Below, one piece after another: positions 5,276-16,980 of a stretch of 64,000 nucleotides of DNA. Every line of letters starts with the position of its first letter. Positions within the stretch are counted from its first letter, which is position 1. The DNA lies in NCBI GenBank assembly GCA_938027685.1, contig CALJAM010000003.1, forward strand, positions 1 to 64,000, given 5' to 3'. This stretch comes from an uncultured Bryobacteraceae bacterium (GTDB taxonomy: Bacteria > Acidobacteriota > Terriglobia > Bryobacterales > Bryobacteraceae). The translations under genes and the position numbers were made by a program. A model generated the notes under the pieces. The model was not told the origin of the DNA. It searched no databases and worked only from the letters and a program-made list of their open reading frames with translations.

Positions 5276-7918
<2,643 letters not shown>

Positions 7919-7956
7919 GTCGGCCTCTGTTAAGCTGGATGATGTCAGCTAATATG

Positions 7957-7985
7957 AGTGTAGCAATATCAAGCCAGCCTGTCAA
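7957..7985 (-). promoter_or_regulatory. Sigma70-type promoter of the clpB-hsp20-lon operon
   Basis: On the minus strand a perfect -35 TTGACA (7980-7985) is separated by exactly 17 bases from TACACT (7957-7962). Transcription would begin near 7950, about 30 bases before the clpB ATG, leaving room for the AGAGG ribosome site. I see no CIRCE (TTAGCACTC-N9-GAGTGCTAA) element, so HrcA control is not indicated. Confidence 0.7.
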
Positions 7986-8025
7986 TACCGCCCGGTTCGC
8001 TCATGCTAAAATGCCTTCCTCCGCT

Positions 8026-8496
8026 ATGGACCTCAGTATCCGACTCGCCGACACCGCCGACTACCCGCACCTCGAGCGAATGGTTGTGGCCGCCTTCGAG
8101 CCCATCACGTGGGCCCGACGCGCCGACGAAATCTTCGGCCCCCTTAACGGCAAGGACTGGCGTGACCGCTGGCGCTTGCGCCTGGCCAAGGTCTTCGCTA
8201 CCCAGCATGTGCTGGTCGGCGAACGCGACGGGCGCATCGTGGCCATGGCCACCGCTACCATCGACACCGACTGCCGGCTCGGCTACATCGACCTGCTCGC
8301 CGTGGACCCCGCCTTCCACGGGCGGGGCTACGGCCGCACGATGCTTCGCGCCATGCTGGACTACCTCAAACGCCAGGGATGCCAACATGCCCACCTGGAA
8401 TGCCTGGAAAACAACGAAGCCGGCAACCGCCTTTACCGCTCGGAAGGTTTCGTCGAGGTGGCGCGCTCCATCCGCTGGTTCATTCGCATCCCCTGA
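8026..8496 (+). CDS. GNAT-family N-acetyltransferase
   Basis: A 156-residue GNAT enzyme. The acetyl-CoA binding core reads LLAVDPAFHGRGYGRTML (motif A, Q/R-x-x-G-x-G/A type), followed by the late motif ENNEAGNRLYRSEGF with the usual Tyr. The ATG at 8026 begins MDLSIRLAD, a typical GNAT beta-1 strand; a longer reading from 7939 would add residues encoded inside the clpB promoter and is unlikely. A TAAAAT hexamer lies 13 bases upstream. The substrate cannot be told. It is divergent from clpB. Confidence 0.88.
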   Translation: MDLSIRLADTADYPHLERMVVAAFEPITWARRADEIFGPLNGKDWRDRWRLRLAKVFATQHVLVGERDGRIVAMATATIDTDCRLGYIDLLAVDPAFHGRGYGRTMLRAMLDYLKRQGCQHAHLECLENNEAGNRLYRSEGFVEVARSIRWFIRIP

Positions 8497-8795
8497 ATGG
8501 CTGCGCTGCGCAGACAGATTAACTTCGGCTATGGTACTTACTAGTAACTTTGAGTATCATTTCTCTGATATTTTCTCCGGCTTTCCTGCCCTGTTGCCCG
8601 AAAAATCGCTTAAGGCGAAGACTGCATCGCTCGCTTCCGTCGACCCCCGGACGTAGGTGAGACCCCCTGTCCCAAGTACTAGAACTGAGCTCGGGTAAGT
8701 TACTTACCGAAGAATATACTTGGAGAGTCAGCCGGTTTCGTAGTAACATAGGGCGGGCGCAACCGTCCTGTTTAAATCTCTCGGAGGATGCCCCC
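8497..8795. other. Non-coding region with lower GC and short palindromes
   Basis: This gap is clearly richer in A and T than its neighbours. It holds two palindromes: TTACTAGTAA near 8537 and GGTAAGT-T-ACTTACC at 8694-8708. Short open frames exist on both strands (for example a 42-codon ATG frame at 8531-8656), but none looks like a known protein. It probably carries the promoter and operator of the downstream MPN-TonB gene. Confidence 0.5.
8694..8708. promoter_or_regulatory. Perfect palindrome, candidate operator
   Basis: GGTAAGT and ACTTACC are perfect inverted repeats around a single T, about 88 bases before the start codon of the MPN-TonB fusion. The size and symmetry suit a dimeric repressor or activator, but no regulator is identified. 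Confidence 0.35.
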
Positions 8796-11051
8796 ATGCC
8801 GCAACCGACAGCCAGCGCGCCACCCGATGCCTCTGCCGCGATGGCGCCACAAGCCTATCGCTGGAAGGTGTCCGGAAAGCCTCTCGCCATCGAGGTGCGA
8901 CTTGATGTCGTCGAGAGACTCGATCAGGAAGTCGTGCGGACCTTCCGCGCCATCACCAGCCGGGGATCAGAAATCGGCGGTCTGCTGCTCGGCCACGTGC
9001 GTCAGGGGCCCGAGCCGGTCGTCGTAATCGAAGATTACGAAACGGTAGCATGCGATTACCAGCGCGGCCCCCTCTACCTGTTGGCCGATGAGGATCATCG
9101 CCGTTTGCAAGAGGCCCTGGCGCGCCGGCAGCAGGCCTCGCCTGCGGATCTTCGCGTTGTCGGCTACTTCCGCAGCAATACCCGTAAGGAGCTGCAACTC
9201 GACGACGAGGACGTGGCCATCCTCAAGCGGTATTTTAGCGATCCGCTGCAGGTCTGCCTGCTGGTGAAGCCCTTCGCCAGCAAAGCGAACTTGGCCGGAT
9301 TCTTCCTCTGGGAAGGCGGCGAACCGCAACGCAAAAGCGACTTGACGTTCCCCTTCAACCGCGCTGAGCTGACCAAGGCGCTGGCCACTTCGAGTGTTTC
9401 CGCCTCTCCGCCGTCGACAGCGACCAGGTTGTCTGCCGCCGAGCCGGCCGACACGGACGGCAAAGCCGCAACCGCTCCCGAGGAGGTGAAGACCCAGGCC
9501 CCAGGCGCCTCGCGACCCACCATCGAGGTACGCATTGCTGTGGCCGAAGAAGGCGGGGCGCGCTTTAAAGCTGCGGCTACCCCCGCGCACGCGGGAGAGG
9601 CTGCAGCCGATAGACGGCCCGCGGAAGGCGTCTCTGCTCCCGCTCCAGCCGACAGTAAGCTTGTCGCCCCTCCTGTGCCGGCGCCCGCCGACGGCAGGGC
9701 TGCAACGGACGGCAAGGCGCAGCCGGAAGAAGAGGACCGAGCCGCCGGCAGGACCGCTCGCCACGGTCCTCGGCTGCTGATCCCCGCAGACGAACTGCCT
9801 GCGACGACGCCGGAGCCCGAAGGAAAAGAACCCGATAGAAGGCCACCCGAACCGGGGACTTCAACTCGCGCCTCGAGGGAAGAGCTGGAAGCCCAGCCTG
9901 GCGCCGCAGCGCGCCCGAAGCGATGGCGCGTCATCTTGGGCGTGGCTGTCCTCGCATTGCTCGGCATCGGCGGCGTCGCAATTTGGAACTTTTCGCGCGG
10001 CGGCGCGCCGGCAACCCAACCGGAGACCGCTTCGCTCGATCTCAGAGTCGAGCGCAGCGGTGGCCAGTTGTTGTTGAGCTGGAACCGGTCCCTGCCCCTG
10101 TTGCAAACCGCCCAGCGGGCGATCCTTTCGATCAGCGACGGCGATCACCACGAAGACGTCGAGATGGATCTGGGGCAGTTACGCACAGGCAGCATCGTTT
10201 ACTCGCCGATCACGGGTGACGTGAGCTTCCGCCTGGAGATCACGGATCTCAAAAACGGCAAGAGCGTCAGCGAGTCGGTGCGCGTGCTGGGCGGGCGTCC
10301 CTCGCCGACGGGTCCTCCGGCGGAAGCCGCCGGCGCCAAGGCGGAGGGCCAAACTTCGGCAGAAGCCCCGAAGAGCGAGCGCCAAGCTCCCAAAACCATG
10401 GCCCCCATACCGAGCCGTGACCACACGGAGTCGCTGGCGGCCCGGCTGAGCCCGGTCGAGCCCATCCCGGCTGCCGGCCCCGCTGTGGCCGAGCTCCCGA
10501 CCCGCGCGCTGCCAGTGGTCGCTGCGCATCCTTCTCCTCCCCCTACACCCGAGGCCGGCGGCGCGGCGCCGCCCGCATCGACCGCCACCCAGCCGCAGCC
10601 GCGCCCGATCGAGCCGGCGAGCTCGCAGGCCTCGACGGCTCCTTCGGCGCCCCCCACGCCGCAGGCCGCCGCCCCATCCCCGGCTCCGCAGCAGGTCAAG
10701 CCCGCTGCTGAGGCGGACCAGGCGGCCGTACAAGCCCAGGCTGCAGGCCGGCAACCCGAGAGTGTGCCCAGGGTTGGAGGGCAGGTGCAGGAGGCACGAC
10801 TCATCCGGCGCCGCGAGCCCATTTACCCGCCTCTGGCCCGCCAGGCCCGGATCCAGGGCGTGGTCCGGCTGGAGGCGGTGATCGGCCCTGACGGCCGTGT
10901 CGAAAAAGTGCAGGCCATCAGCGGTCCCCCTCTGCTGAGGCAGGCGGCGATCGACGCGGTCAAGGACTGGGTCTACGAACCCAGCCGTCTCAACGGCCGG
11001 CCGGTGCGCGTGACCACGCAGATCGAGATCAACTTCACGCTGGGTCGCTAA
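8796..11051 (+). CDS. MPN/JAB-like domain, TM segment and TonB C-terminal domain fusion protein
   Basis: A 751-residue protein with three parts. Residues about 25-185 resemble an MPN (JAB/Mov34) fold: EIGGLLLGH, then VVGYFRSNTRKELQLDDEDV where active members have a His-x-His metal motif, then a GFFLWEGG strand. The metal-binding histidines are missing, so it is probably a non-catalytic MPN. A Pro/Ala-rich stretch leads to one membrane helix at about 375-396, another long Pro/Ala-rich periplasmic linker follows, and the last 90 residues are a TonB C-terminal domain (IYPPLARQARIQG near 677, then VKDWVYEPSRLNGRPV). The orientation implied is MPN domain in the cytoplasm and TonB domain in the periplasm. 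A GGAGG lies upstream of the ATG. No exbB or exbD is adjacent. Confidence 0.75.
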   Translation: MPQPTASAPPDASAAMAPQAYRWKVSGKPLAIEVRLDVVERLDQEVVRTFRAITSRGSEIGGLLLGHVRQGPEPVVVIEDYETVACDYQRGPLYLLADEDHRRLQEALARRQQASPADLRVVGYFRSNTRKELQLDDEDVAILKRYFSDPLQVCLLVKPFASKANLAGFFLWEGGEPQRKSDLTFPFNRAELTKALATSSVSASPPSTATRLSAAEPADTDGKAATAPEEVKTQAPGASRPTIEVRIAVAEEGGARFKAAATPAHAGEAAADRRPAEGVSAPAPADSKLVAPPVPAPADGRAATDGKAQPEEEDRAAGRTARHGPRLLIPADELPATTPEPEGKEPDRRPPEPGTSTRASREELEAQPGAAARPKRWRVILGVAVLALLGIGGVAIWNFSRGGAPATQPETASLDLRVERSGGQLLLSWNRSLPLLQTAQRAILSISDGDHHEDVEMDLGQLRTGSIVYSPITGDVSFRLEITDLKNGKSVSESVRVLGGRPSPTGPPAEAAGAKAEGQTSAEAPKSERQAPKTMAPIPSRDHTESLAARLSPVEPIPAAGPAVAELPTRALPVVAAHPSPPPTPEAGGAAPPASTATQPQPRPIEPASSQASTAPSAPPTPQAAAPSPAPQQVKPAAEADQAAVQAQAAGRQPESVPRVGGQVQEARLIRRREPIYPPLARQARIQGVVRLEAVIGPDGRVEKVQAISGPPLLRQAAIDAVKDWVYEPSRLNGRPVRVTTQIEINFTLGR

Positions 11052-11135
11052 ATCGCAGAAGGACATCCCTTCTGCGCGGCGGCTCCGTGTGCCGTGAGGC
11101 CCCGACCCATCGGGCCCCGTGATAGGCTGAGGGAG

Positions 11136-12329
11136 ATGCCCGCAACGCAGGAAGAAATTGTCATCAAGGCTCTCGATTCATTCCGTATCGAGCTACCGTC
11201 GTGGGGCTTCGCCAACACCGGTACTCGTTTCGGCAAGTTCATTCAGCCGGGCGCGGCCACCACGATCGAGGAGAAGCTGGCCGACGCCGGCCAGGTCCAC
11301 AAGTTCACCGGCTGCTGCCCGACGGTCGCTGTGCACGTGCTGTGGGACTTCCCCCACGGCGTCTCCAGCGTGCCCGAGACCGTACAACTGGCGACGAAAT
11401 ACGGCGTCCGTATCGGCGCCATCAACCCCAACGTCTTTCAGGATCAGATCTACAAATACGGCTCGCTGGGCAATCCCGATCCCACCGTCCGCGAGAAAGC
11501 TCTCGCACACATCCTCGATTCCATTCAGATCGCCTCGCTCACCGGCAGCCGCGACATTTCGCTCTGGTTCGCCGACGGTTCGAACTTCCCGGGCACGGCC
11601 AACATCCGTCGCCGCAAGCACTGGTTCATCGAGGGATTGCGCGCCGCCCATGACCGCCTCGCCGAAGGCCAACGCATGCTCGTCGAATACAAGCCGTTCG
11701 AACCGGCCTTTTATCACACCGACATCGCAGACTGGGGCATGGCGTTGCTGATGGCTCGCGCCGCCGGCCCCAAGGCCAAGGTGCTCGTCGATACCGGCCA
11801 CCATTACCAGGGCCAGAACATCGAGCAGATCGTCGCCTGGCTGCTTGACGAGGACATGCTCGGCGGCTTCCATTTCAATGACCGGCGCTACGCCGACGAC
11901 GACCTGACCCTGGGATGCATCGACCCCTATCAGGTCTTCCGCATCTTCCACGAGATCCTGCTTTATGAGTTCGAGACCGGCCGGCGGGCGGACATTGCCT
12001 ACATGGTCGACCAAAGCCACAACCTGAAAGGCAAGATCGAAGAGATGATCCAGACCGCCCTGACCGCGCAGGAGCTTTACGCCAAGGCCGCGCTGGTGGA
12101 CCACGCCAAACTGCTCGAGCACCAGCAGCGCTCTGAGCTGGTGGACGCGGAGGAGTGCCTCAAGCAGGCCTTCGCCACCGACGTGCGTCCTTACCTGCGC
12201 CAGTGGCGCCGCGCCCACGGCCTGCCCGAGGACCCGCTGGCCGCATTCCGCGCATCCGGCTATCAACAGCGGATCGACCGGGAGCGGGCCGAGAAGAACC
12301 TGGCCGCCGCCTCGGGGGCCTACGCCTAG
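11136..12329 (+). CDS. rhaI: L-rhamnose isomerase (RhaI type)
   Basis: A 397-residue TIM-barrel sugar isomerase of the Pseudomonas/Rhizobium L-rhamnose isomerase group, unlike E. coli RhaA. Metal and substrate residues appear in the order MLVEYKPFEP (Glu), VLVDTGHHYQGQN (Asp, His), GGFHFNDRRYADDDL (His, Asp). It converts L-rhamnose to L-rhamnulose in the cytoplasm; related enzymes also isomerise other aldoses. The ATG at 11136 follows GAGGGAG. No rhamnulose kinase or aldolase is nearby, so the pathway partners lie elsewhere. Confidence 0.85.
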   Translation: MPATQEEIVIKALDSFRIELPSWGFANTGTRFGKFIQPGAATTIEEKLADAGQVHKFTGCCPTVAVHVLWDFPHGVSSVPETVQLATKYGVRIGAINPNVFQDQIYKYGSLGNPDPTVREKALAHILDSIQIASLTGSRDISLWFADGSNFPGTANIRRRKHWFIEGLRAAHDRLAEGQRMLVEYKPFEPAFYHTDIADWGMALLMARAAGPKAKVLVDTGHHYQGQNIEQIVAWLLDEDMLGGFHFNDRRYADDDLTLGCIDPYQVFRIFHEILLYEFETGRRADIAYMVDQSHNLKGKIEEMIQTALTAQELYAKAALVDHAKLLEHQQRSELVDAEECLKQAFATDVRPYLRQWRRAHGLPEDPLAAFRASGYQQRIDRERAEKNLAAASGAYA

Positions 12330-12351
12330 GGCCGCTTTCTGCTCGCCCGCG

Positions 12352-13251
12352 GTGCCGAGCCGATCGCGGCTGCGCGACTGGGCCGAGTACCTCGCCGCCC
12401 GCCTCGCCTTATTTCTGCTCGCCTGGACACCCCGGCCGTGCGCCGAGATCCTGGCACAGGTTTTCATGCGCGCTCTCCAGGCGGCGGTCCCGCGCCTGCG
12501 GCGGACGGCCCTGCGCAACCTCGAGCTGGCGATGCCGGAGCTGGAGCCGCAGCGCAGGGAGCGCATCGTCGCGGGAATGTTCCGGTCGCTCGCCCGTATG
12601 GCCGTCGTCTTCGCCCGCCTGCCCCGGCTCGACCATCGCAACATTTCCGAGTGGATACGTTACGATGGCTTCGAGCACTTCCGGCAAGCCTTGGCCCGCA
12701 GACGCGGCGTCCTTTTCGCCGCGGCGCATCTGGGCAACTGGGAGCTGAGCGCCTACGCTCACGGCCTGCTGGCCGGTCCGATGCACATCGTCGTCCGCCC
12801 CCTCGACAATCCCCTGCTCGACCGCCTGGTCGAAACCCGTCGCACGCTCCGGGGCAATCGCATCATCCCCAAAAAGCACGCCGCTCGCGCCGTCCTGAAG
12901 GCCTTGCGCGAGAACCGCGCGGTGGGCATCCTCATCGACCAGAACGCAGCGCCGGAGGAAGGCGTGTTCGTGGATTTCTTCGGGCTGAAAGCCTGCGCAG
13001 GAACGGCCTTCGCCCGCCTGGCGGCGCGCAGCGGCGCCACGGTGATCCCGGGCTTTGCGCTCTGGTGCGAAGGCGAGCGCCGTTATGTGCTTCGCTTTTA
13101 TCCGCCCGTGGAGATCAGCGGCGACGTCCAGCGCGACACGCAGCGGCTGCACGCCTTGCTCGAATCGGTTATCCGCGAATACCCCGAACAGTGGCTGTGG
13201 ATTCACAGGCGCTGGAAAACGCGGCCGCCCGGTGAACCGCCGCTTTACTGA
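12352..13251 (+). CDS. LpxL/HtrB-type lysophospholipid acyltransferase
   Basis: A 299-residue protein with a GTG start 22 bp after the isomerase. A hydrophobic N-terminal segment (AARLALFLLAWTP) anchors it to the inner membrane. The H-x4-E acyltransferase motif is AAHLGNWELSAY near residue 125, and a conserved GILIDQNAAPEEGVFVDFFG block follows. The end WLWIHRRWKTRPPGEP is typical of the family. It most likely adds a secondary acyl chain to lipid A or a related glycolipid, which supports an outer-membrane organism. Confidence 0.88.
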   Translation: MPSRSRLRDWAEYLAARLALFLLAWTPRPCAEILAQVFMRALQAAVPRLRRTALRNLELAMPELEPQRRERIVAGMFRSLARMAVVFARLPRLDHRNISEWIRYDGFEHFRQALARRRGVLFAAAHLGNWELSAYAHGLLAGPMHIVVRPLDNPLLDRLVETRRTLRGNRIIPKKHAARAVLKALRENRAVGILIDQNAAPEEGVFVDFFGLKACAGTAFARLAARSGATVIPGFALWCEGERRYVLRFYPPVEISGDVQRDTQRLHALLESVIREYPEQWLWIHRRWKTRPPGEPPLY

Positions 13252-13418
13252 GCCGTTTCGCCCGCGGTCTCCAGCAGGAGATGGCACTCGCAGCAGTCAC
13301 TGCAACGGCCACACTGCTCGCAGAGGTGGTTGGGACAGGCATCCTTGGTGCAGTAGACGCAGATCGCGGTCGAGGGCTCGCCGCAAATGCTGCAGCTAAA
13401 TTGGTAGACCTCGCTCAT
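13245..13418 (-). CDS. Cys-rich 57-residue putative zinc-binding protein
   Basis: A short gene read directly from the sequence. The product starts MSEVYQFSCSICGEPSTAIC and contains eleven cysteines in CxxC, CxxxxC and CCEC arrangements (CSICG, CVYCTKDACPNHLCEQCGRCSDCCECH), with one or two histidines among them, suggesting two zinc knuckles or a B-box-like fold. Its ATG overlaps the stop of the upstream gene as ATGA, so translation is probably coupled. Its tail overlaps the convergent acyltransferase by 7 bp. Function unknown; it may be a protein or nucleic acid adaptor. Confidence 0.75.
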   Translation of the reverse strand: MSEVYQFSCSICGEPSTAICVYCTKDACPNHLCEQCGRCSDCCECHLLLETAGETAQ

Positions 13419-14002
13419 GGGCGCTCCTGCGTGCCCGGCCCTCCGCTTCGGGAAGGCCTGGCGGGCGGCTGACGGATCAGGACGTCTCGGCAGCGCTGGG
13501 CTTCGCGATCGGCGATCTCGAGCTCCTGCTCCTTGGCCTGTGCCAGATCCAGCAGATACTGCCGGAGGCTCTCACGGCTGGGCGCTCCTTCGGCGTAAAC
13601 CGACCGCAGCAAGTCGGCCAGCGCGGGGTTTTGATAGCGACGCACGCCCTCCTCCAGCGAAGCTAGCAGCAACTGGAAGCGGTCGAGGCGGAGGAAGGTG
13701 TCCAGGACAGCCGTTAAGCGGTCGGGGCGTGCCCGCAGGATCTCCGCAGAGCGCTCAAGGTAACCGAGCTCCGTGCGCAGCGTCTTGAGTTGTTCTATGT
13801 AGGTATCGGGGGCTCCGCGGCCTGGCCACTCCTCGGCTCGCACTTGAGCAAGCACGGGCTTCAGCCTTGTCAGGCTTTCGGCCAGCGCCTCGATTTGCTT
13901 GCGGATCTCCCATTCCGGAGGCAGGCCCGTCTGAGCCCGCCAGGTCGGCGCCAGTAGGATCGCCGCGAAGATCGAAACAAAACCACGGGGCGCTCGCGCC
14001 AT
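13415..14002 (-). CDS. Secreted helical protein of unknown function
   Basis: A 195-residue protein with a probable signal peptide (RGFVSIFAAILLAPTWRAQ). The rest is predicted helical by composition: alternating Leu/Arg/Glu stretches such as RKQIEALAESLTRLKPVLAQV and LDTFLRLDRFQLLLASLEEG, ending in a Pro/Arg/Gly-rich tail. I recognise no family. It lies 57 bp after the FecR gene and overlaps the Cys-rich gene by 4 bp (ATGA), so the three form one operon. Confidence 0.7.
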   Translation of the reverse strand: MARAPRGFVSIFAAILLAPTWRAQTGLPPEWEIRKQIEALAESLTRLKPVLAQVRAEEWPGRGAPDTYIEQLKTLRTELGYLERSAEILRARPDRLTAVLDTFLRLDRFQLLLASLEEGVRRYQNPALADLLRSVYAEGAPSRESLRQYLLDLAQAKEQELEIADREAQRCRDVLIRQPPARPSRSGGPGTQERP

Positions 14003-14059
14003 CTCAGGAACTAGTTTCGCACGGACGACGCGTGCGCTCCGATTTCCCGCGCAGGCAAA

Positions 14060-14908
14060 CTACGGGGGCGGCGGAGGTCCGAGATCGGGATCAGGCGGGG
14101 GCGGAGGAGGCGGCGTCTGCGGCCCTGTGTCGCCGGGCAGGCCCCCGCCGGGGGCGCCTCCGCCCGAGGGCGGCGCGGAACTGCCGGGCCGCGACGGCCC
14201 GCCCGGACTGTCGTAGACGCCCGTGTAAATCGCCTCGGCGATGGCCTGCAAGGCGCGCCGCAGCACGGAACCCTTGTCGAGCGATTTCTGAGCCAACGGC
14301 TGCGCGCGGTAGACCCGGATCCACTCACCCGCATTCAGCAGACGCGGCTCCCCGCGTGGCAGCAGCTTGTGCTGGACCGCCACCTGGCCCTCGTCCACCA
14401 CGATGAGCGTTGTGCCCTCCTCGTCGCTCACTTCGACGTCGAACACCGTGCCGCGGACCGAGATCACGGCCGTGGGCGTATCCACGCGGTTGGGGTTGGG
14501 TCGCCCGTTCATCCGCTGGATGCGGAACTTCAGCCGCCCCAGCCAGACTTCGACCAAGTGGCGCCAGTCGCCCGGATTGCTGCGGAAAGTAGCGCGCGAA
14601 TTGGGATAGACCTCGAACGTGCTGCCGTCAGCAAGCTCGAATCGCGCGAAACCATCGGGGCCTGTCACGATCACCTGGCGCGGCAGTACCTCGTCGCCGA
14701 CTTCGAGCGCCCAAGGCACCGAATCGCGCAGAACCGAGACCTGCCCGGTGAGCGCCACCACGCGCGCCACGGCGGGGTTCGCAGGCGCGGCTGCCGGCGG
14801 CTTGGCGATGCTCGGGCTTGGGGGTTTCAGGGAGGGAACCTGCGCAAGACACACTCCGACGGTGGTTGCAGCAAGCAACCAGGCTCGCGACGGGCCCCTC
14901 CTCGGCAT
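14060..14908 (-). CDS. FecR-domain secreted protein with proline-rich tail
   Basis: A 282-residue protein from the ATG at 14908, chosen because it opens a signal peptide (RAWLLAATTVGVCLAQ); a longer frame upstream to 15016 runs through the AT-rich promoter. The central region is a FecR domain: VARVVALTGQVSVLRDS, LPRQVIVTGPDGFARFELADG, then TAVISVRGTVFDVEV, the typical fold of exported FecR proteins. The tail is Gly/Pro-rich with runs of prolines. No FecI sigma factor or TonB receptor is adjacent, so it is more likely a structural or peptidoglycan/surface protein than an iron-signal anti-sigma factor. Confidence 0.82.
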   Translation of the reverse strand: MPRRGPSRAWLLAATTVGVCLAQVPSLKPPSPSIAKPPAAAPANPAVARVVALTGQVSVLRDSVPWALEVGDEVLPRQVIVTGPDGFARFELADGSTFEVYPNSRATFRSNPGDWRHLVEVWLGRLKFRIQRMNGRPNPNRVDTPTAVISVRGTVFDVEVSDEEGTTLIVVDEGQVAVQHKLLPRGEPRLLNAGEWIRVYRAQPLAQKSLDKGSVLRRALQAIAEAIYTGVYDSPGGPSRPGSSAPPSGGGAPGGGLPGDTGPQTPPPPPPPDPDLGPPPPP

Positions 14909-15073
14909 ACGCACGCGCTTTCTTCCCGCCCGCGCTCGATCGCCCTTGAACCGAGCCGGGCCTCCTATGTCAACACCCAAGTTTACATCAAACTTGCTTG
15001 GCAATCTCAACGCCAACTTGAATTTTTTCGATTATACAAGCGGTTGGCGAACCGGCGAGGCTGACCCTCAGGT

Positions 15074-15097
15074 TAGAATGGACACAGCGAATGTGTC
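15074..15097 (+). promoter_or_regulatory. -10 element and palindrome overlapping the start codon
   Basis: TAGAAT (15074-15079) lies eleven bases before the ATG at 15091. It is followed by GACACA-GCGAA-TGTGTC (15081-15097), a perfect inverted repeat that spans the start codon. The spacing leaves almost no 5' leader and no ribosome site is visible, so the mRNA may be leaderless or nearly so, and a bound protein or an RNA hairpin here would block initiation. Confidence 0.4.
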
Positions 15098-16980
15098 GTT
15101 TTGACACAAGAGCGCTGCGGATGGCCTGCTGGCTGTTGCCCGCACTACCGGCCCTCGCGCAGGCACCTGTAGAACGCCGTTGGGACTGGCGCCCGCTGGG
15201 TGTTCCACTACTCGAGCTGGAGTTGGCAGCTCCCGCCGGCGGGCCCATAGACCGGGTCTGGTTTTCGCAGTCAGGCGATGAACTGTACGCGCGCACCCGC
15301 TCGGGGAAGGTGTACGTTACCAAAGGCGGCCAACGCTGGAGGCCCGCGCAGGATCCGGTCACACCGCCGCGCGCCCTGGAGTTCCGCGAACTCGATTCTG
15401 CGGGGAGCGTGTTGGTCTGGAAGGATCCGGCAGGCTCGCCGCGGATGTATGCTTTGGGGCGGCACCTGCTGCGTTCCGATGATGGCGGGCGGACGTGGCT
15501 GAACCTGACCGAATTTCGGGGTGGCTCGATTCTCGGGACCGCGCCCCGTGACCTCGCGGTCTCGCCGCACGACCCCGATGTCATCGTGGTGGCCAACGAT
15601 TACGGCTTGTGGCGCTCCCTCGACGGCGGGCTTTCCTGGAGCGGCATGAACGAGAACCTTCCCTCGCTGGCCATGCGCCGTATCCTCGCGCTGCCCGACG
15701 GCTCGACGGGCCTGCGGGTTGAGGTCGAGGGCATGGGCGCCTTCGAGTGGCCGCCCGGCGAGCGCAGGGCATGGCGACCGGTGCTCGACCCGGCTTTGGA
15801 GTACGAGGCCCGGTTGCGTAGCTTGCTTTCCGGGGTTCTGGAAACGGAAATCACGGCCGTGGCCATCGCAGGTGATTTCCTTTACGCAGGCTCTGCGGAC
15901 GGGCGCCTTTGGGTCTCCCGTGATCGCGGCCGTACGTGGCAGCTTCCCGAGAGCGTCGAACCTGTCGCAGCCGTAACCCGCATCTGGGCAGACCCCTCGC
16001 AACCGCAACTAGCTCTTGCCGCGCTCGCCAACCGCCAGGGGGCTCGCGTGCTGCGCACGACCAACGGGGGTCTCTTCTGGGATGATCTGACTGCAGACCT
16101 GCCGCCCGGCGCACGAGCTTATGGGGTGGCCGCGGACCGCGCTGGAGGCGCCGTCTATGTGGCTACCGAACGGGGGCTTTTCTACACCCGCACGCAAATG
16201 GACGTGCCGGCTCCCGCCACGCCCTGGATGGCTGCACCGGCCGGTCTGCCCGAGGCGCCAGTCGTCGACGTACGGCTCGATGCGGAGGGTAACCGCATCT
16301 TCGTCGCCCTGGAGGGCTACGGGGTCTATGCGGCTACGGCGCCGCATCGCAGGTGGGCGCCCAGGGTGGTCCACGGGGCGGATTTCAGCGCGCGGGCAGC
16401 CGCGCCCGGCGCCCTCCTCAGTGTCCTCGGTGCGCATGTAGAGCGGGCTTTGGCCGGGACGCAGCCTGCCGCGGTGCTCTCGGCTTCCGAGGCCGAGTCC
16501 CAAATTCAGATCCCATTCGGGATACACGGGGATCGGATCGAGCTTGCGCTGGAGACGCAGGCTCGCAGCCTGCACGTCACATGGCCGCTGAAAAGGGTCG
16601 CGCCCGCTATCGTCCTGGAACCGGACGGTTCGCCCTTGTTGCTCGACGCCGAAACCGGGCTGCTGCTCGACGCCATGAACCCGGCTCGGGCCGGCGCGCG
16701 CATCCAGGTCCTGGTGACCGGGCTGGGCGAGGTACGCCCGGCCTGGCCTGCGGGCCTTCCTGCGCCGCTCGATCAGCCCCCCTCGGTCGTGGCTCCCGTG
16801 CACGCGTTCCTGGGTAACGTCGAGATGCCGGTCCTTCGTGCCGTGCTGGCTCCCGGCTACGCGGGCCTTTACCTGGTCGAGATCCAGTTACCCGATCTCG
16901 TCGACCGCGGGCCTGCGGAGTTGTACGTCGAGGCGGACGGCGCGGCGAGCAATCGGGTTCGGGTCTATCTGGAACCGTAA
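15091..16980 (+). CDS. Secreted BNR/VPS10-type beta-propeller with TIGR03437 C-terminal domain
   Basis: A 629-residue exported protein. The signal peptide reads RMACWLLPALPALAQA. Repeats of S-x-D-x-G-x-T-W type (SDDGGRTWLN, SLDGGLSWSG, SRDRGRTWQLP, TTNGGLFWDD) mark a sialidase/VPS10-like propeller, without visible catalytic sialidase residues. The last 220 residues match the Solibacter C-terminal domain: VLVTGLGEVRPAWPAG, then VLAPGYAGLYLVEIQLPD and ASNRVRVYLEP. It is probably an extracellular binding protein. It is divergent from the FecR gene across an AT-rich 180 bp region. Confidence 0.8.
   Translation: MCRFDTRALRMACWLLPALPALAQAPVERRWDWRPLGVPLLELELAAPAGGPIDRVWFSQSGDELYARTRSGKVYVTKGGQRWRPAQDPVTPPRALEFRELDSAGSVLVWKDPAGSPRMYALGRHLLRSDDGGRTWLNLTEFRGGSILGTAPRDLAVSPHDPDVIVVANDYGLWRSLDGGLSWSGMNENLPSLAMRRILALPDGSTGLRVEVEGMGAFEWPPGERRAWRPVLDPALEYEARLRSLLSGVLETEITAVAIAGDFLYAGSADGRLWVSRDRGRTWQLPESVEPVAAVTRIWADPSQPQLALAALANRQGARVLRTTNGGLFWDDLTADLPPGARAYGVAADRAGGAVYVATERGLFYTRTQMDVPAPATPWMAAPAGLPEAPVVDVRLDAEGNRIFVALEGYGVYAATAPHRRWAPRVVHGADFSARAAAPGALLSVLGAHVERALAGTQPAAVLSASEAESQIQIPFGIHGDRIELALETQARSLHVTWPLKRVAPAIVLEPDGSPLLLDAETGLLLDAMNPARAGARIQVLVTGLGEVRPAWPAGLPAPLDQPPSVVAPVHAFLGNVEMPVLRAVLAPGYAGLYLVEIQLPDLVDRGPAELYVEADGAASNRVRVYLEP

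Follow-up and report, generated by a model that had tools for sequence, protein, structure and literature searches.

A conserved pseudo-MPN domain joined through one membrane helix to a predicted fibronectin-III-like domain and a TonB C-terminal domain in Bryobacteraceae: a possible un-energised trans-envelope adaptor

The gene at 8796..11051 (+) of the window, by which we mean the whole stretch of 64,000 nucleotides analysed here, encodes a protein of 751 amino acids in which an MPN domain devoid of its catalytic histidines, a linker, a single transmembrane (TM) helix, a fibronectin-III-like (FnIII-like) domain, a second linker and a TonB C-terminal domain (TonB_C) follow one another. This architecture is well supported; the function we infer. 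The reading that we favour tentatively, at somewhat less than an even chance, is that of an un-energised TonB-like trans-envelope adaptor, which would connect outer-membrane (OM) receptors to a binding pocket in the cytoplasm.

The reading frame is open from its ATG to the stop codon, and a Shine-Dalgarno-like CGGAGG stands directly 5' of the ATG at 8796. A same-genus orthologue (locus L051) is 69% identical to the full-length protein over 730 aligned codons, at a dN/dS of 0.19. The source genome assembly comprises 3.93 Mb in 45 contigs; the closest named relative is the metagenome-assembled genome (MAG) Bryobacteraceae bacterium SKYB110, in which the MPN domain is 84% identical. According to Pfam, an acetyltransferase gene and a ClpB-like gene on the opposite strand lie upstream, and a gene for a sugar-isomerase-like TIM barrel of the AP_endonuc_2 type and a lipid A acyltransferase gene lie downstream; as judged by eye, the two downstream genes recur in L051 and are absent at locus L107. 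No gene at the window locus names a partner. Rfam returned no match at gathering score within the window, promoter-like sites numbered 0 against 0.3 expected and terminator-like sites 5 against 3.6; neither an RNA element nor a promoter or operon finds support.

The MPN (JAMM-fold) domain occupies residues 21-186 (8856..9353, +). In the window sequence alone this part is invisible to Pfam, because the sole match of the protein at E <= 1 is TonB_C; among 68 relatives scanned at E <= 0.01, PF01398 (JAB) was matched in 22 and PF14464 (Prok-JAB) in 13. A profile built from 62 family members matched MPN proteins of solved structure in the PDB, the best being an Rpn11-like one at E 1e-12. The AlphaFold (AF2) model of the domain has a mean pLDDT of 93.3 and a pTM of 0.90; a Foldseek search with this model listed MPN proteins from rank 1, and VIA aligned it with Cap3 (Z 13.7, rmsd 3.4, 147 residues) and with a Caldiarchaeum Rpn11 homologue (Z 13.3, rmsd 3.0, 142 residues). 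The fold matches also include EMC subunit chains and the metal-free Mov34. Family matches, profile and predicted structure together assign residues up to 186 to the MPN/JAB superfamily, with the MPN fold that the first-pass annotation had supposed. The window's genome has one Prok-JAB match, in a stand-alone frame of 156 aa (G000:C24:116982-117287).

The JAMM/MPN+ signature, E...H-x-H-x(7)-S/T-x2-D, comprises the zinc-binding and catalytic residues. At its positions the window protein has E, R, N, D and D: the former JAMM motif GYFRSNTRKELQLDDED (residues 123-139; 9162..9212, +) carries Arg126 and Asn128 at both His positions and keeps Asp139, with the partner Glu59 upstream. The alignment thus places the protein outside the JAMM/MPN+ metalloproteases, and the histidines suspected earlier to be missing are indeed absent. 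Five of the 140 distinct family ORFs that we gathered have a short MPN part and were dropped before alignment and tree building, leaving 135 rows, window included, in which the first His position is R in 104, H in 16, V in 8, I in 3, L in 2, Q in 1 and C in 1. This R-type share of 104/135 is inflated, because 80 loci, kept out of 129 from one search, were collected with a single peptide pattern derived from an R-type alignment; in the first set, for which the window sequence, itself R-type, served as query, it was 35/66. The JAMM Glu and Asp are kept in all 104 R-type rows and an Arg follows four residues after the first His position in 99 of them, while the second His position is H in 75, N in 19 (the window's Asn among these) and something else in 10. 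The alignment of 81 rows from which the fold was predicted shows no variation at E45, R112 and D125 (59, 126 and 139 in the window protein). Such an Arg/Glu/Asp set is hardly to be expected of a domain in decay, and from this we infer a retained binding pocket with Arg in place of zinc; judged by these substitutions, the MPN domain is a conserved pseudoenzyme.

A cytoplasmic low-complexity linker (residues 187-378; 9354..9929, +) leads from the MPN domain to the one TM helix, as had been predicted, at residues 379-397 (9930..9986, +), TM helices being assigned throughout by hydropathy alone. The N-terminal flank of this helix (RPKRWR) is richer in Lys/Arg than its C-terminal side. Across the 107 ORFs of the order MPN-helix-FnIII, the bias lies on the N-terminal side in 79 and on the opposite side in 8, with a tie in 20. 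By charge, the helix N-terminus appears to be inside and the MPN domain cytoplasmic, which agrees with the side to which it had been assigned before.

Beyond the helix, the predicted structure shows two ordered units, an FnIII-like beta domain and the TonB C-terminal domain (CTD), joined by a mostly disordered linker. The first of these (residues 408-505; 10017..10310, +), overlooked by the first-pass annotation, has a block pLDDT of 91-96 over most of its length, and Foldseek returned FnIII and monobody entries at E 6e-4 to 8e-3 for a query that also contained the TonB CTD, the matched part being unspecified. Pfam gave no match to this domain at E <= 1, and the FnIII-like profile has a single match in the window's genome, the window protein itself. 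We read the beta domain as a probable fibronectin type III domain, less firmly than we assign the MPN domain. The periplasmic Pro/Ala-rich linker that follows (residues 506-673, about 165 residues; 10311..10814, +) has low pLDDT over most of its length and contains a short conserved motif, SLAARLSPVEP (residues 546-556; 10431..10463, +). Its pattern, x[LM]xxRL, is present in 18 of the 24 fusions matched by the FnIII as well as the TonB_C profile; they are exactly the 18 whose tips group with the window's, and the pattern was not found in the other 6 of the 24 tested.

The TonB C-terminal domain expected beyond the helix is present at residues 674-749 (10815..11042, +). PF03544 (TonB_C) matches it at E 2.2e-20 (73.3 bits against a cut-off of 24.6) and NCBIfam TIGR01352 (TonB family protein) at 42.5 bits against 27.1, and Foldseek matched TonB CTDs, best 6i97_D at E 1.6e-5; the PF03544 score and the CTD fold together identify the domain. 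The window's genome has 5 TonB_C, 4 MotA/ExbB-family and 3 ExbD matches; TonB-dependent barrels are matched 75 times at E <= 0.001, with 11 of these scores under the Pfam cut-off. The exbBD genes for which the first-pass annotation would have looked elsewhere in the genome are found on contig C10, where one TonB gene adjoins exbB and two exbD. The window TonB_C is 64% identical to that of this ExbB/ExbD-operon TonB, the best of 30 stand-alone domains compared (taken from the best-scoring loci up to a cap, near-copies included, after 3 of 33 frames had been dropped, two as pieces of MPN fusions and one as a wrong match). In a TonB_C tree, 18 of the 28 fusion tips, that of the window among them, cluster with four stand-alone domains at 95% SH-aLRT, a value obtained from few columns and with a long-branch warning; the remaining 10 have diverged and lie apart from this housekeeping-like group. 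Because of its kinship with the ExbBD-operon domain (64%, same group), the window tip looks like a working TonB tip. We also observed, at L208 (G018:C121), an M56 peptidase joined to TonB_C, with two TonB_C stretches and a tip in the window's sequence group.

Against the L051 orthologue, the MPN domain is 85% identical with a dN/dS of 0.083, the FnIII-like domain 94% with 0.037 and the TonB_C domain 94% with 0.032, the lowest of the whole protein, while the cytoplasmic linker (residues 186-375) reaches 41% with 0.43 and the periplasmic linker 54% with 0.26. As they come from this one same-genus orthologue, with dS near 1 to 1.4, these dN/dS values are rough. The MPN, FnIII and TonB_C domains are under purifying selection, and the linkers are looser.

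The N-terminal 335 residues were matched in 37 of 61 genomes, that is, in 36 of the 37 belonging to the window's family (itself included) and in 1 of 24 outside it. In 297 genomes of the phylum, with 12 candidates scored per genome, the R-type profile (E <= 1e-10) has matches in at least 6 and the broad profile (E <= 1e-15) in at least 12, the window's own genome being counted in both; there the window protein is the single broad-profile match. Of the 140 family ORFs, 15 are cut by a contig end; 114 of the remaining 125 have an FnIII-like match, and 107 also have a scored helix between MPN and FnIII. TonB_C was recognised in 28 ORFs, a list of distinct MPN plus TonB_C homologs such as the first-pass annotation had envisaged, and was not recognised in 112, of which 13 are contig-cut. 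As far as domain matches tell, the core of the family is MPN-TM-FnIII, with TonB_C as a probable addition in some members.

The addition is unevenly distributed. Counting uncut rows, TonB_C occurs in 25 of 93 R-type rows and in one Gln-type row (L053), in 0 of 16 H-type and in 0 of 13 V/I/L/C-type rows. The comparison of 25/93 with 0/29 gives a Fisher p of 0.001, which ignores relatedness and leaves out L053 (Gln); because the rows are related, the association should be taken as a pattern and not as 26 events. Once contig-cut rows are set aside, a quick MPN tree, 66 of whose 132 inner branches are weak, requires the TonB_C label to change 9 times (7 times without two doubtful rows), which would mean that TonB_C was gained or lost repeatedly. 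Of 138 loci, 53 contain an rsmI-like TP_methylase gene in the retrieved stretch (for example L090:6644-7576): 2 are contig-cut R-type, and the other 51 come from the 68 R-type loci that lack TonB_C. At 36 loci this gene adjoins the family gene in divergent orientation, at a median distance of 97 bases. The shorter MPN-TM-FnIII members fit a general role.

These family data bear on the main rival of the adaptor reading, according to which MPN-TM-FnIII would be a membrane scaffold unrelated to TonB-dependent uptake, and TonB_C a tip recruited for dimerisation or as an anchor to peptidoglycan or the OM. The 112 of 140 ORFs without recognised TonB_C (13 of them contig-cut), the rsmI-like gene at 51 of 68 R-type loci without TonB_C and the repeated gain or loss of TonB_C on the quick tree all speak for it, and so do the fold matches to EMC subunit chains and metal-free Mov34, pseudo-MPN scaffolds being common in eukaryotic complexes. 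Yet TonB_C, with the lowest dN/dS of the protein, is its most constrained part, and in the window's group it resembles a housekeeping TonB rather than a divergent anchor. We regard the scaffold explanation as possible, though doubtful.

Several observations on individual loci should be recorded. Beside one subgroup of the TonB_C fusions stand a divergently oriented gene, whose product is a CxxC protein, and a TPR gene (for example L128:4150-5700 and L110:2888-4537); the CxxC-protein gene is found in 20 of 138 loci, the TPR gene in the same 20, and the pair is absent from the window locus. Two copies of the CxxC protein scanned gave no Pfam match at E <= 0.01; by eye, it possibly has a C-terminal concanavalin-like domain, and that part alone has a relative elsewhere in the window's genome (G000:C8). 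In the same-genus genome G002, FnIII-like and TonB_C matches share one frame of 280 aa at the end of contig C317 and an MPN part is cut at the end of C90, which suggests that its copy of the fusion lies divided between these contigs. At L012 the start appears to be miscalled, giving an overlong N-terminus. L176 is an acidobacterial family member in a MAG record titled Bordetella parapertussis, a title that looks wrong.

The second rival takes up the idea of the first-pass annotation that the protein is a true TonB, energised by ExbBD and regulated by its cytoplasmic MPN domain. Its attractions are the 64% identity of the tip to the TonB_C of the ExbBD-operon TonB, the 4 MotA/ExbB-family and 3 ExbD matches in the genome, and the Gln that the ExbBD-operon TonB itself has for His, a departure by which the classical motif is not strictly kept in this case. 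In E. coli, too, TonB works with ExbBD encoded elsewhere. The helix tells against this rival. In published cryo-EM work (PMC12215075), Ser16 and His20 of TonB touch ExbB, the His being essential, and the D-box of TonB binds ExbD. Within the 19-residue helix core, Ser/Thr-x3-polar was found in 0 of 28 fusions versus 23 of 30 stand-alone TonB_C proteins, and near the helix 24 of these 30 have Ser/Thr-x3-His/Asn/Gln (18 His and 6 Gln, one Gln at the helix edge), the pattern being missed in 6. The other four TonB_C proteins of the window's genome, read by eye, have Ser-x3-His in three cases and Ser-x3-Gln in one, the ExbBD-operon TonB; two of the genome's TonB_C proteins, L098 and L099, are below the profile cut-off, and for them too the helix motif was read by eye. 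The four stand-alone tips that group with the window's have Gln in two (one being the ExbBD-operon TonB), Glu in one and no motif in one (the M56 fusion), and since these nearest stand-alone proteins depart from it, the classical His is not strict in the window's TonB_C group. In sequence, it is the whole Ser-plus-polar pair that the fusions lack, and not merely the classical His. Neither the window helix nor those of the other 27 fusions have the Ser-x3-His by which an energy-transducing TonB reaches ExbB.

Two further points weigh against energisation: the FnIII-like domain begins about 10 residues past the helix, roughly at the place of the D-box of E. coli TonB as described in PMC12215075, and all four MotA/ExbB-family matches are on contigs other than that of the gene. 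With the Ser and polar ExbB-contact residues missing in 28/28 fusion helices, the energised TonB is in our judgement clearly unlikely. An unknown energising system had been suggested in its stead; nothing that we found points to one.

It is very improbable that the MPN domain has kept metalloprotease or isopeptidase activity. A complete JAMM signature does occur in 13 of the 135 rows, none of which has TonB_C, and membrane-anchored proteins with complete JAMM exist elsewhere in the phylum; in the window protein, however, both His ligands are replaced, 104 of the 135 rows have Arg in place of the first His, and with the zinc ligands gone we reject this reading. The complete-JAMM, membrane-anchored MPN proteins belong to other families of the phylum: L240 (G316), L242 (G300), L050 (G057), which has no match to the FnIII or TonB_C profiles, and L188/L238 (G269), which by eye has a zinc-ribbon-like CxxC part ahead of its helix. 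Their existence suggests, on unrooted trees, that an active membrane JAMM protein may have come first, followed by a pseudoenzyme scaffold in Bryobacteraceae and then by the addition of TonB_C to some members.

A defence-system role (Ub-like/JAB or CBASS) is unsupported: the Pfam matches listed for the eight locus proteins at 5276-16977 include no E1, E2, Ub-like or CD-NTase family, PADLOC did not match the window domain, and none of its JAB models on its own hits more than 11 of 62 members. An assembly chimera or chance low-complexity segment, a doubt that the low-complexity linkers and the 15 of 140 contig-cut ORFs might nourish and that had been raised for the N-terminal part, can practically be dismissed, being refuted by the recurrence of MPN plus TonB_C in 28 distinct ORFs and by dN/dS values (0.083 for MPN, 0.037 for FnIII and 0.032 for TonB_C) that mark strong purifying selection.

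Comparison with known systems helps to place the protein. With TonB it shares the C-terminal fold, a single TM helix with the N-terminus inside and a long Pro-rich periplasmic linker; it differs in its large cytoplasmic MPN domain, in the FnIII-like domain after the helix and in a helix free of Ser/Thr-x3-polar. The M56/BlaR1-type peptidase-TonB_C protein at L208 also joins a non-TonB module to a TonB_C, one that clusters with the window's and is 53% identical to it, but its module is Peptidase_M56 instead of MPN, and Pfam finds M56 and TonB_C alone there. Of the JAMM/MPN+ isopeptidases (the Caldiarchaeum Rpn11 homologue, Cap3 and PfJAMM1; VIA Z 12.8-13.7) the protein has the fold and keeps the Glu and Asp, whereas both zinc His are replaced, the protein is membrane-anchored and the eight locus proteins include no Ub-like or E1-type family. 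The MPN- pseudoenzymes Mov34/Rpn8, EMC8/9 and KIAA0157/Abraxas serve as binding scaffolds and likewise have the MPN fold without a working zinc site; unlike the window protein, they are subunits of eukaryotic complexes, and the window pocket keeps Arg-Glu-Asp and is tied to a TM helix, an FnIII-like domain and TonB_C.

Let us assume, with the adaptor reading, that the guanidinium group of Arg126 replaces the zinc ion in the former catalytic cleft. The cleft would then have turned into a pocket for a cytoplasmic protein tail or an anionic ligand. The TonB_C domain, by homology, may be assumed to dock on the OM receptors of the housekeeping TonB, or on TonB itself, with the FnIII-like domain and linker spanning the periplasm and the helix perhaps serving as an anchor alone. 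Because the helix lacks the ExbB contact, as its residues indicate, such docking would be passive. From the cytoplasmic side, the protein might monitor or adjust the engagement of receptors, or it might act on TonB by competing with it or holding it; it would not power uptake. A more far-reaching proposal, which we consider somewhat unlikely, is that these fusions form a TonB-like class uncoupled from ExbBD and rewired to an Arg-for-zinc pseudo-isopeptidase pocket, in which one polypeptide across the whole envelope would relay receptor engagement to the cytoplasm, or the reverse, by mechanical means or through occupancy. In the literature searched, no paper was found to connect MPN or Mov34 with TonB, and co-mentions of Mov34 and TonB concern, judging by title and opening of the abstract, unrelated topics.

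If the adaptor reading is true, the protein would provide a one-protein line from OM receptors to the cytoplasm without the Ton motor, and this in a genome where receptor barrels are matched dozens of times and TonB_C five times. The membrane family to which it belongs offers a natural series, with complete JAMM sites at one end and a pocket fixed for the Arg substitution at the other, and with this series the question of what pseudo-MPN pockets bind becomes testable.
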